Shown here: piece after piece, positions 8,734 to 11,595 of the stretch | How positions within the stretch are numbered: position 1 is the stretch's first letter | How the letters are laid out: every line of letters begins with the position of its first letter | Program-made: the position numbers and the translations under genes | NCBI GenBank assembly: GCA_947073515.1 | Contig: CAMTMC010000018.1 | Location: forward strand, 1-45,589 | DNA from: an uncultured bacterium | Lineage (GTDB): Bacteria; Bacillota; Clostridia; Oscillospirales; Oscillospiraceae | Length of the DNA stretch: 45,589 bases | Direction: 5' to 3' | The notes under the pieces: generated by a model | The model's input: only the letters and a program-made list of their open reading frames with translations | The model's database searches: none | What the model was told of the DNA's origin: nothing

Positions 8734-8785
8734 GCGCCAATACCGTGAAAGGGGTGGTATGCTTTGAAGCGATGCATTGTCCTCC

Positions 8786-8838
8786 GGGGAATCATGGAGC
8801 GATAATATCATTCAGGAGGTTTTTTCTCATGATTCCCC
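8786..8838 (+). promoter_or_regulatory. Hairpin that buries the acetyltransferase start codon
   Basis: GGGGAATCATG (8786-8796) is the exact reverse complement of CATGATTCCCC (8828-8838), which contains the ATG at 8829-8831. The ribosome site AGGAGGT (8814-8820) sits in the loop. A competing helix can form between CCTCC..GAAT (8781-8792) and ATTC.GGAGG (8810-8819), which covers the ribosome site instead. Either would reduce translation, as in translation-attenuated resistance genes. Confidence 0.55.
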
Positions 8839-9464
8839 ATTGGAAACTCTATCCCCGCTCCCAGGGGCACAGCACTGTCTACCTGCGAAATGTGGTGACC
8901 GACCCCTCCATCCAGGTGGGGGACTACACCATTTATGACGATTTTGTCCACGACCCCAGGGATTTTCAGCGCAACAACGTGCTCTATCACTACCCCGTCA
9001 ACCAGGAGCGGCTGGTCATCGGCAAGTTCTGCTCCATCGCCTGCGGAGCCAAGTTCCTCTTCAACAGCGCCAACCACACGCTGCGCTCCCTGTCCACCTA
9101 CCCCTTCCCCATCTTCTTTGAGGAGTGGGGGCTGGATGTGGAGCGTGTCCCGGAGGCCTGGGACAACCGGGGCGGCATCACCGTGGGAAACGATGTCTGG
9201 ATCGGCTACGAGGCCGTGATCCTGGCCGGCGTCACCATCGGGGACGGGGCCATTATCGCCGCCCGGGCGGTGGTCACCCAGGACATCCCGCCCTACACCA
9301 TTGTGGGCGGCGTGCCCGCCAGGCCCATCCGCAAGCGGTTTTCTGAACCGGAGATTCAACAGCTCCTGGCCCTCCGGTGGTGGGACTGGCCTCCGGAACA
9401 GATCGCCGCCAACCTGGACGCCATCCAGTCGGGCGATTTGCAAACGCTGGCCCATCTGTCCTGA
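8829..9464 (+). CDS. Hexapeptide-repeat O-acetyltransferase of the Vat/CatB (xenobiotic acetyltransferase) type
   Basis: A 211-residue left-handed beta-helix acetyltransferase. Family marks: [36 protein letters not shown] with the catalytic-type His, [30 protein letters not shown]-like turn and the C-terminal WWDWP. Vat enzymes acetylate group A streptogramins and CatB enzymes acetylate chloramphenicol, both from acetyl-CoA in the cytoplasm; sequence alone does not settle the substrate. I chose ATG 8829, eight bases after AGGAGGT; the frame stays open upstream, but earlier starts have no good support. The gene converges on an Lsa-type ABC-F gene, which would protect against the same drug group. 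Expression may be held back by the start-codon hairpin. Confidence 0.85.
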
Positions 9465-9470
9465 TCCACT

Positions 9471-9499
9471 GGCCCGCCGGTTTTCCGGCGGGCCTTTTT
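9471..9499 (+). terminator. Intrinsic terminator after the acetyltransferase
   Basis: Perfect 10-bp stem GGCCCGCCGG / CCGGCGGGCC with a TTTT loop and a five-T tail, three bases before the stop of the convergent ABC-F gene. Confidence 0.9.
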
Positions 9500-9501
9500 C
9501 T

Positions 9502-10980
9502 CTACAGCTCCACCGTCCGGGTGGCGATGTTCTCCCGGAACACCCGGTCGTGCTCCACAAACAGCAGGGTGGGCCGGTACTGGAGCAGCAGCTCCTCCAG
9601 CTGCATCCGGGAGAACAGGTCGATATAGTTCAGCGGCTCGTCCCAGAGGTACAAATGGGCGCTGTGGCACAGGCTGGCCGCCAGCAGCGCTTTTTTCCGC
9701 TGCCCGGCGCTGTACTCCGCCATATCCCGCTCAAAGAGGAGCCGGGAAAAATCCAGCTTCCGCAGAATGGTGAGGAACTGGGTCAGGTCGATCCCCTGGC
9801 CCTCCGCCCAGTCCAGGGGGCTGCCCGCCAGATCCCCGGCCTGCTGGGGCACGTAGGAGATCTTCAGCCCCGAGGCCGTCCAGAACTGGCCGGTGTGGGG
9901 CACCTCCTCCCCCAGGAACAGCCGCAGCAGGCTGGTCTTGCCGGCGCCGTTGCCCCCCTCCAGGCACAGCCGCTCCCCCCGCTCCAGGGTGAAGCTCACC
10001 GGTTTGCCCAGAGGGGCTCCGCCGTAGGCGACGGACAGCTCCCGGCACTCCGCCAGCCGCTGGCTGTGGTACTCCAGGGGGAAGAGCTTCAGGCTGTCCG
10101 CCTGCTCCACATCCTTCAGCAGGGCGGATTTTTCCTGGATGGCGCTGTGCTGGCGGCTCTCCAGGCTTTTGGCCCGCCGCATCATCTTGGCGGACTTGTG
10201 GCCGATGAACCCCCGGTCGGGCCGCAGGCCGGAGTTTTTGGAGGCGTACTTGGTCTTCTCCACCTTGTCCGACCAGGCGGAGGCGCGCTTGGCGGCCTGC
10301 TCCAGCCGGCGGATCTCCCCCTTCAGCTTCTCGTTCCGGGCCCGCTCCCCCCGGTCCCGGGCCTCCTTCTCCCCGAACCAGGTGGAGAAGTTCCCCCGGA
10401 CCAGCTCCGGGCCGGTGGGGTTCAGGGCCAGGATGTGGTCCACGCAGCTGTCCAGGAAGGCCCGGTCATGGGACACCAGCAGGAACCCCCGGTCCAGCCC
10501 CCGGAGGTACTGGGCCACCTTCTCCCGGCCCTCCCGGTCCAGGTGGTTGGTGGGCTCGTCAATCATGGGGTAGGCGGCATCGTCTAAAAACAGGGCGGCC
10601 AGCAGGGCCCGGGTCCGCTCCCCGCCGCTGAGGGTGGAGAAGGGCCGCTCCAGGATCTCCTCCCCCAGCCCCAGCAGGGACAGCTCCCGGTAAATTTTCC
10701 ACTCGTCCTCCGGCGCCACCCCCTCCAGCAGGATGTCCATGGCACGCTGTCCGGGGTCCTCCACCGGCCGGGGCCAGCGCAGGCAGGGGATTTTGGTGAG
10801 GCTCCCCCGGCCCTCCAGCTCCCCCGCCAGCAGCCGCAGGAGGGTGGTTTTCCCTCTCCCGTTGCGGCCCACCAGGCCCAGCTTCCAGCTGGTGTCCAGC
10901 TGGAGGTCCAGCCCCTCAAAAACGGGGGTGTAGTCCCCGTCGTAGGTAAAATGCAAATCGGAAATGGTAATCTGAGACAT
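9502..10980 (-). CDS. ABC-F ribosomal protection protein, Lsa/CplR type
   Basis: A 492-residue protein with two ATPase domains and no membrane segment. Domain 1: Walker A GRNGRGKTT, signature LSGGERTR, Walker B YPMIDEPTNHLD, switch VSHDR. Linker at about 190-300 is rich in charged helices and holds GFIGHKSAKMMRRAKSLESR, a pattern of the Lsa subgroup. Domain 2: GGNGAGKTS, YSAGQRKK, LYLWDEPLNYID, VEHDR. Such proteins enter the ribosomal E site and dislodge lincosamides, pleuromutilins and group A streptogramins. ATG 10980 is chosen because AGGAGGACAACC precedes it; the codon at 11016 lies in the attenuator. A strong promoter and a 200-base attenuator-like leader precede it. Confidence 0.9.
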   Translation of the reverse strand: MSQITISDLHFTYDGDYTPVFEGLDLQLDTSWKLGLVGRNGRGKTTLLRLLAGELEGRGSLTKIPCLRWPRPVEDPGQRAMDILLEGVAPEDEWKIYRELSLLGLGEEILERPFSTLSGGERTRALLAALFLDDAAYPMIDEPTNHLDREGREKVAQYLRGLDRGFLLVSHDRAFLDSCVDHILALNPTGPELVRGNFSTWFGEKEARDRGERARNEKLKGEIRRLEQAAKRASAWSDKVEKTKYASKNSGLRPDRGFIGHKSAKMMRRAKSLESRQHSAIQEKSALLKDVEQADSLKLFPLEYHSQRLAECRELSVAYGGAPLGKPVSFTLERGERLCLEGGNGAGKTSLLRLFLGEEVPHTGQFWTASGLKISYVPQQAGDLAGSPLDWAEGQGIDLTQFLTILRKLDFSRLLFERDMAEYSAGQRKKALLAASLCHSAHLYLWDEPLNYIDLFSRMQLEELLLQYRPTLLFVEHDRVFRENIATRTVEL

Positions 10981-11003
10981 GGTTGTCCTCCTGTCGTTGG
11001 CGC

Positions 11004-11038
11004 AAAAAAGCCGCAAGAGGATCTTCTCCCCTTGCGGC
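11004..11038 (-). terminator. Attenuator terminator in the ABC-F leader
   Basis: On the minus strand GCCGCAAG (11038-11031) pairs with CTTGCGGC (11017-11010), with a further GGA/TCC inside, and runs into TTTTTT (11009-11004). It lies 24 bases before the ABC-F start codon, so it must be passed to express the gene. Confidence 0.85.
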
Positions 11039-11055
11039 GAACCAGGCCCGGCAGA

Positions 11056-11158
11056 GAGAAGACGCGCAATTTCCTCCCGCGACCCACGACAGAACAGGGC
11101 CGTCCCCCGGCCCGCTTGTATCCCGTCATGGTGTCAGCAAGTGGTATTGCGCATCTTC
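11056..11158 (-). promoter_or_regulatory. Alternative helices of the ABC-F attenuator
   Basis: On the mRNA, GAAGAUGCGCAAU (11158-11146), which contains the leader start codon, pairs with AUUGCGCGUCUUC (11070-11058): 13 bp with one G-U. The same second arm, as UCUUCUC (11062-11056), can instead pair with GAGAAGA in the loop of the terminator hairpin, about 10 bp with two G-U. The two pairings exclude each other, the usual logic of anti-antiterminator and antiterminator. Confidence 0.6.
11134..11154 (-). CDS. Six-codon leader peptide MRNTTC of the ABC-F attenuator
   Basis: ATG 11154 to TGA 11134 with GGGAGG seven to ten bases upstream, a much better ribosome site than chance ORFs show. It starts about 27 bases after the predicted transcription start. 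A drug-stalled ribosome here would keep the 13-bp helix at 11146-11158 from forming. Short leader ORFs are known ahead of other antibiotic-induced ABC-F genes; this peptide itself I do not recognise. Confidence 0.55.
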   Translation of the reverse strand: MRNTTC

Positions 11159-11187
11159 CCGCCTCCCAGTCTTTTTCAGATGGGTAC

Positions 11188-11216
11188 AGGATAACACGGC
11201 GGGCGGGCTTTGTCAA
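11188..11216 (-). promoter_or_regulatory. Strong sigma-A promoter of the ABC-F gene
   Basis: On the minus strand, perfect TTGACA (11216-11211), 17-bp spacer, TATCCT (11193-11188). The start of transcription would be near 11181, giving a leader of about 200 bases. Confidence 0.85.
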
Positions 11217-11233
11217 GCCCGCCGGGCCGAAGT

Positions 11234-11267
11234 AAAACCGCCGTGGACAATTCTACAGCGGTTTTTT
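11234..11267. terminator. Bidirectional terminator-like hairpin
   Basis: AAAACCGC (11234-11241) pairs with GCGGTTTT (11258-11265), followed by more T on the plus strand. On the minus strand it lies just after the stop of the small XRE gene and ahead of the ABC-F promoter. Confidence 0.6.
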
Positions 11268-11268
11268 A

Positions 11269-11595
11269 TCAGCAAACGGAAAGGAACGCATCAATTATCG
11301 TCTTTAAAGCATTCAACTTCTCAGCATCTAAATGTTCAAATTTACTGTCCTCAAAAATACTGCGGCGGCTGTACTGCCCAGTCAGCAGATATTCAAGATC
11401 CAGCCCCAGCGCACGGCTTACCGCAATCAGGTTTTCAGGCCGCAGCGCTTTTTGTCCCAGCTCCGCTGAGCTAATGGTCTTGGGCGATATTCCCGCTAAT
11501 TCCGCTAAGGTCTCCTGACTCAGCCCAAGCTCATTTCGCTTTGTCACAATCCGTTTCCCCATTTCAGCGAGAAGATTTTGACTTTCCTTCTTCAT
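11269..11595 (-). CDS. Small XRE-family repressor
   Basis: A 108-residue protein with an N-terminal helix-turn-helix at about 10-68: ELGLSQETLAELAGISPKTI is the recognition part. The C-terminal 40 residues may form a dimerising helix pair. It is visibly AT-richer than its neighbours, which suggests transfer or a recent arrival. It is transcribed away from the 74-residue gene at 11708, and the 112 bases between them hold repeated CCCT.ATGG-type sites, the usual layout of a self-regulated repressor. No toxin, integrase or phage gene accompanies it. Confidence 0.8.
   Translation of the reverse strand: MKKESQNLLAEMGKRIVTKRNELGLSQETLAELAGISPKTISSAELGQKALRPENLIAVSRALGLDLEYLLTGQYSRRSIFEDSKFEHLDAEKLNALKTIIDAFLSVC

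Follow-up and report, generated by a model that had tools for sequence, protein, structure and literature searches.

What controls the Lsa-type ABC-F gene in this 45,589-base stretch of DNA (the window), and does the six-codon mini-gene ahead of it act through its peptide or its RNA? The initial annotation proposed an attenuator in which a drug-stalled ribosome on the leader releases the gene from termination. Our analysis upholds this proposal as a predicted switch, although the model of how it works proved incomplete. Ribosome-dependent attenuation of the ABC-F gene is the best reading of the locus, and we put the probability that lsa has a ribosome-dependent transcription attenuator, with a drug-stalled ribosome on the leader as the trigger, at about 0.8. 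The relevant features are as follows.

9502..10980, minus strand: Lsa-type ABC-F ribosomal protection gene, 492 amino acids, recognized by profile NF000355 and by its match to the LsaA structure.
11004..11038, minus strand: intrinsic terminator, a 12-bp stem (11038-11027 with 11021-11010) followed by T6 (11009-11004).
11053..11070, minus strand: segment B2, which pairs either with the start-codon arm (11070-11056) or with 11031-11022 (11062-11053, 10 bp).
11072..11083, minus strand: segment B1, which is either within the leader hairpin or, in the blocked fold, paired over 12 bp with the terminator 3′ arm (11021-11010).
11084..11131, minus strand: inner hairpin, with 13 bp (11131-11119 with 11096-11084) plus 6 bp (11113-11108 with 11102-11097), in the free and blocked folds.
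11134..11154, minus strand: leader ORF MRNTTC (ATG at 11154-11152, then CGC AAT ACC ACT TGC, and TGA at 11136-11134), seen in the sequence and by automatic detection.
11137..11144, minus strand: segment A, positions +10 to +17 from the start-codon A (CCACUUGC), resembling the terminator 3′ arm (CCUCUUGC).
11146..11160, minus strand: 5′ side of the leader-hairpin base, holding the leader start codon and paired with 11070-11056 (15 bp in the free fold).
11188..11216, minus strand: promoter, with -35 TTGACA (11216-11211), a 17-nt spacer and a TG-extended -10 TATCCT (11193-11188).

By sequence, the product is an antibiotic-resistance ABC-F protein (427 bits in a search with profile NF000355, cut-off 380). 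With the Lsa model NF000167 it scores 623 bits, under the curated cut-off of 750 and thus outside Lsa by that model; because of this score, and with LsaA as the best PDB sequence match (7nhk, E = 2.9e-124), we use the wording "Lsa-type". Relatives of the protein exist on plasmids (e.g., lsa(E), 49.7%); the leader DNA had no match in plasmids and a single match in the source genome.

The strong promoter, six-codon ORF, ribosome site and T6 terminator that had been read from the sequence were all borne out, as were their coordinates. The promoter matches the consensus at 10 of 12 positions, two promoter-like sites were found within 3.5 kb compared with 0.6 expected, and transcription probably starts near 11181. 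The leader's ribosome site, GGAGG, ends 7 nt 5′ of the ATG, and the terminator stem ends 29 nt upstream of lsa. Directly upstream on the lsa strand is a gene for a small helix-turn-helix regulator (PF01381; 11269-11595, minus strand), which a hairpin and T-run separate from the lsa promoter.

The 202-nt leader RNA folds to -108.6 kcal/mol, compared with -73.4 (sd 4.3) for dinucleotide shuffles, none of 200 of which did as well (z = -8.21). The 13-bp helix that had been reported to include the leader start codon (11158-11146 with 11070-11058) is real; its one G·U pair lies inside the start codon, and it grows to 15 bp in the minimum-energy fold. The leader hairpin, a large one, encloses the six-codon ORF, and in this free fold the CUUGC of segment A (11141-11137, codons 5 and 6) pairs with 11080-11076. 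The inner hairpin is formed in both states.

How would a ribosome on the leader change this fold? The ribosome was modeled as a blocked footprint of 32 nt, extending from 15 nt behind to 16 nt beyond the P-site codon's first base, which was then slid along the leader. In the window, the probability of the terminator is 1.00 with the RNA free and 0.99 with the footprint on the start codon, then falls to 0.42 at +3, 0.10 at +4 and 0.06 at +5 and +6. It is 0.41 at +7 and 0.83–0.88 at +8 to +10, drops again to 0.64 at +12 and recovers to 0.98 at +13. Folding with the leader blocked, a check proposed in the initial annotation, thus turned the terminator off, but for a narrow set of ribosome positions (+4 to +6). 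Since the start-codon footprint leaves the fold unswitched, switching requires the footprint to be one codon further on or slightly larger. In the blocked fold, the terminator is replaced by a 22-bp, two-part antiterminator, with helices of 12 bp (11083-11072 with 11021-11010) and 10 bp (11062-11053 with 11031-11022) across a 9-nt internal loop. The 12-bp helix takes the whole 3′ arm of the terminator, and the 10-bp helix takes the loop together with the end of the 5′ arm. The competing helix previously described between 11056-11062 and the terminator loop therefore exists, but as a portion of the 10-bp helix, and the idea that a freed arm disrupts the terminator was right in outline in silico but left out 11083-11072, which additionally captures the 3′ arm.

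From these structures, we infer a switch in which ribosomes translate the leader. Without drug, they would complete the six codons and leave, the leader hairpin would form and mask B1 and B2, and the terminator would halt transcription in vivo upstream of lsa. A drug acting against formation of the first peptide bonds would hold the ribosome on the first codons, where it would cover segment A and the start-codon arm; because of the gene family, a pleuromutilin, lincosamide or streptogramin A is the probable trigger. B2 could then capture the emerging terminator loop and B1 the 3′ arm, giving the antiterminator and allowing lsa to be transcribed, so that the gene would be induced by drug. Folding in this order is plausible, as the 11062-11053 helix could start before the 3′ arm is made, and this may be how the antiterminator wins. 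The leader would be read for ribosome position and RNA pairing, not for its peptide.

Are these parts kept in relatives? The Lsa-type protein was found in 40 of 64 genomes of the genus, 54 of 200 of the family, 76 of 295 of the order and 36 of 398 of the phylum (overlapping samples, at the limits used). The closest relatives are from Colidextribacter, Lawsonibacter and Pseudoflavonifractor, and the protein also occurs in Oscillibacter, Butyricicoccus, Roseburia, Pelosinus, Desulforamulus and Paenibacillus. Two of 222 loci gave no lsa start and 37 of the other 220 were dropped as duplicates or for having less than 120 nt upstream, leaving 183 distinct upstreams. Automatic detection found a terminator at most 130 nt from the gene together with a short ORF with a ribosome site in 156 of the 183; the ORF was missing in 17 and the terminator in 10, and the choice of ORF or terminator was visibly wrong in some rows (e.g., L153, L173 and L083). 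Setting aside these 27 upstreams, and 24 near-duplicates among the 156, left 132 representatives. Among a further 50 distinct proteins from named genomes, 36 had both terminator and short ORF. The initial annotation had named the loss of the small ORF and the pairings in homologues as grounds for rejecting the attenuator; this check was made and gave no such grounds.

The alternative pairings are also conserved. Pairing of segments A and B beat 95 of 100 shuffles in 68 of the 132 representatives, and pairing of B with the terminator arm (segment D) did so in 58, with about 6.6 expected for each. In an alignment of 32 of 36 genus leaders (four MRNSHR or MRNSLR leaders were left out), the A:B pairs hold in 88.8% of cells, compared with 41–68% when slid, and the antiterminator pairs in 88.0%, compared with 51–60%. 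With the modeled footprint, the mean terminator probability of the 132 representatives drops from 0.92 to 0.72 at shift 0 and 0.71 at +4, and is at least 0.88 when the footprint is at least 20 nt away in either direction; in this equilibrium model, the loss exceeds 0.3 in only 22–26% of representatives.

What, then, is conserved in the mini-gene? The initial annotation considered the leader peptide new, and this may hold for MRNTTC, which is not mentioned in the accessible text of the literature on ABC-F leaders. However, the peptide seems not to be the conserved unit, since the detected ORFs vary from 2 to 9 residues and in sequence, while an RNA octamer is common to them. In the window, segment A and the terminator 3′ arm have 7 of 8 letters in common. 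In 43% of the 132 representatives, the octamer at +10 agrees with the terminator arm of the same leader, counting its loop, at 7–8 of 8 letters; offsets of +8 to +12 belong to the same peak, and the match is 0–4% at -40 to +3 and +16 to +70. The peak at +10 reaches 53% of 74 six-codon leaders and 65% of 26 seven-codon leaders. Leaders of two to four codons (26 of 132) have a weak copy that lies 1–3 nt later (8% at 7/8 or better at +11 to +13). Some of them (L123, MR; L145, MK; L198, MRK) keep the copy past the stop codon and others do not, and several types among the 26, including MIR and MFIR, lack it. Matches within leaders reach 47.7%, compared with 25.2% (sd 2.9; highest of 2000, 35.6%) for permuted terminator arms, and Fisher tests on the A, B and D letters gave p = 7e-6, 4e-6 and 2e-9; both sets of values are inflated by common descent, and a tree-based test gives no support for A–D.

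Codon choice also points to RNA. Among the 103 leaders of at least six codons, residue 2 is Arg in 66, residue 5 is Ser in 63 and residue 6 is Cys in 88. The Ser5 codon is UCU or UCC in 63 of 63 and the Cys6 codon is UGC in 86 of 88 (22 of 23 for AT-rich upstreams). As the octamer tends to copy the terminator arm while peptide and stop vary, the Ser-Cys ending looks like an RNA code rather than a peptide code, suggesting that conservation of the mini-gene is chiefly at the RNA level. In four leaders, CGC stands in place of UGC and the terminator arm also contains CGC: L080 (MISFLA), L144 (MRMISRK), L141 (MRI, with the octamer segment beyond the stop) and L215 (MRNSLR, from the same genus as the window). 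These compensated leaders argue that RNA pairing is what is conserved. The letters in A and the terminator arm are T/T in 75 of the 132 representatives, C/C in 4, T/C in 7 and C/T in 1; the remaining 45 have one or both letters unclassed.

The search for compensatory changes in relatives thus yielded a few compensated variants, but covariation corrected for phylogeny was not significant on the protein tree (175 of 225 proteins kept; 143 with terminator and ORF; 109 rows with all three segments, 102 of them with usable letters). On this tree, only 7 changes of the A letter occur. Tree-based independent pairs gave 0.4 for and 0.2 against A–D, which leaves it unsupported in these 102 rows, 0.9 for and 0.1 against A–B, and 3.6 for and 0.1 against B–D (median p = 0.125). 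Within the genus, covariation did not clearly exceed that of shuffles, 32 of 500 of which reached the score of the antiterminator and 452 of 500 that of A:B; the RNAalifold consensus of the alignment has a double change in 14 of 35 pairs. Conservation, codon choice and the few compensated variants together suggest a role for RNA pairing.

If the octamer is a copy of the terminator, why at +10? The toeprint of a 30S subunit on the vmlR ORF is reported 16 nt past the start-codon A (PMC9226507), which would put the octamer where the front of an initiating ribosome lies. One tentative idea, to which we give slightly less than even odds, is that clostridial lsa leader ORFs are largely peptide-blind position sensors, in which the start codon is the ruler and the octamer a decoy of the terminator 3′ arm. 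If so, any peptide would do: the gene would come on whenever a drug held the ribosome at the first codons, and RNA mimicry would give rise to the Ser-Cys ending as a by-product. Much of the otherwise unexplained conservation of ultrashort leader ORFs before ABC-F genes would then be accounted for.

Could the nascent peptide be sensed instead? MRNTTC and its relatives would then be drug-specific arrest peptides, as in erm and msrD, with the RNA pattern secondary. The peptides are non-random, as the frequencies of Arg2, Ser5 and Cys6 attest, the sequence of the uORF is described as crucial to vmlR induction (PMC10201436), and the vmlR variants MDN and MDK are reported to be at least equal to MIN and MRK weaker (PMC9226507). 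Yet 26 of the 132 leaders have only two to four codons, a peptide would not need Cys and Ser codons that are nearly fixed even in AT-rich upstreams, and MISFLA, MRMISRK and MRNSLR keep a matching terminator arm although they lack Cys. MRNTTC also lacks an RLR-type arrest motif (as described in PMC6310831), which sets it apart from the erm, msrD and hflXr kind. We therefore consider peptide sensing improbable. The prevalence of Cys6 would also fit an attenuator in which slow decoding of the cysteine (or another amino acid) codon stalls the ribosome without any drug; this is hardly credible for leaders that have a single Cys codon, or in some cases none, ahead of an ABC-F protection protein rather than a gene of amino-acid metabolism.

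Control might alternatively act mainly at lsa translation, by hiding and freeing its ribosome site, with the terminator secondary. Both cplR and vmlR are reported to have a translational layer (PMC10201436, PMC9226507), and genus members have an inner-hairpin 5′ arm (CAUGACAGGA type; 11119-11131 in the window) that resembles the ribosome-site region of lsa (10980-11003), at 7/8 or better in 36% of 25 genus representatives at +24 and +26. Outside the genus, this resemblance is at background (at most 5% at +24 and +26), and modeled accessibility of the lsa ribosome site is nearly constant with ribosome position (mean 0.18–0.23 in 36 leaders; 0.04–0.14 in the window), making such control very unlikely as the main mechanism. 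At one variable position, the inner hairpin and the ribosome-site region form a Watson-Crick pair in 19 of 29 cases and G-T in 2, and are mismatched in 8. In one locus (L022), changes in the inner hairpin's 3′ arm are matched by changes in the ribosome-site region.

Returning to transcription attenuation by a stalled ribosome, is this leader confined to lsa? Rfam gave no match at gathering score in the whole window, and a permissive search of 10900-11300 gave eight matches, all far under the gathering scores of their families. With a model (R1) built from 24 of 26 genus leaders, sense matches with E < 1e-3 were found in 39 of 64 genus genomes, 37 of which have lsa; in one of these (G039), leader and gene are on different contigs. 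The two matches beyond the lsa genomes are at a contig end (G026) and before an lsa truncated by the contig (G041, leader MRKSLC). Three genus genomes with lsa have no R1 match (G008, G021 and G024), and their leaders encode MINFSCK, MRINSCK and MRTASCK (loci L221, L220 and L222). Of the 200 genomes sampled from the family, 16 have a match at E = 0.1 or better, and the six places there without lsa are not leader-like. We also considered whether the same switch precedes other genes: by eye, nine of ten R1 places without lsa either are within or abut coding sequence or do not have the architecture, and the tenth is G041. Two other ABC-F genes, checked out of 68 matches in the source genome, have no such leader.

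How does the leader compare with known systems? Ribosomes stalled by drugs on tiny ORFs attenuate vmlR, cplR and other ABC-F genes (PMC9226507, PMC10201436, PMC12421871). Like vmlR, the MRNTTC leader combines an intrinsic terminator with a preceding short ORF that has a ribosome site, and its anti-antiterminator, antiterminator and terminator are mutually exclusive in silico. The uORF of Bacillus subtilis vmlR has three codons (MIN) rather than six and was demonstrated experimentally (PMC9226507), whereas the MRNTTC leader is predicted; vmlR also belongs to ABC-F subfamily ARE2 and Lsa-type proteins to ARE3 (PMC10201436). Clostridioides difficile cplR (uORF MR[I/M]) is likewise a clostridial ABC-F gene with a short leader ORF and transcriptional attenuation, but its terminator also hides the ribosome site of the gene (PMC10201436), while the stem of the present terminator stops 29 nt short of the gene. 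Four loci (L044, L075, L119 and L126), with ORFs such as MFIR, MHIR and MIR, have a hairpin and T-run placed right over the lsa ribosome site, in a manner somewhat reminiscent of cplR, and lack the octamer copy. Enterococcus faecalis lsaA, an Lsa-family gene, likewise has a very short predicted leader ORF, the peptide of which differs (MAGN, compared by consensus only; PMC10201436), and Streptomyces are5sc (uORF MLV) encodes an actinobacterial ARE5 protein and differs in sequence (PMC12421871).

A literature search with poor coverage of subscription journals turned up nothing on either clostridial lsa leaders or a terminator decoy, and the available text of two RNA-motif surveys (PMC11109978, PMC8632094) does not mention ABC-F genes. 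Since attenuation of ABC-F genes is established and clostridial lsa leaders were not found in this literature, the MRNTTC leader is an addition to a known kind of switch, that of the vmlR, cplR and lsaA leaders. From it, gut Oscillospiraceae and other lsa-bearing Clostridia are predicted to have an intrinsic drug tolerance that can be induced, on which a gene list alone is silent. The leader also bears on the question, raised in PMC10201436, of why the sequences of tiny ABC-F leader ORFs are kept even though drug action depends little on context. Leaders in nature that stop early, are shifted in frame or have Arg in place of Cys provide ready cases for distinguishing peptide from RNA, and the comparative argument for a decoy may be of wider use.

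Finally, a Vat-like gene (streptogramin A acetyltransferase family; 8829-9464, plus strand; 226 bits with NF000311, below the cut-off of 300) is convergent with lsa, and one terminator (9471-9494) is common to both. The region at about 8750-8830 (plus strand) folds no better than its shuffles (z = -1.1); it contains a possible two-codon ORF (Met-Leu) behind a purine-rich stretch, and GGAGG followed by T6 lies immediately before the Vat-like gene, perhaps as a small leader of its own. Such a Vat-like neighbor also adjoins lsa in 4 (L100, L105, L108 and L109) of the 30 other genus loci with downstream flank (L032 and L088-L116).
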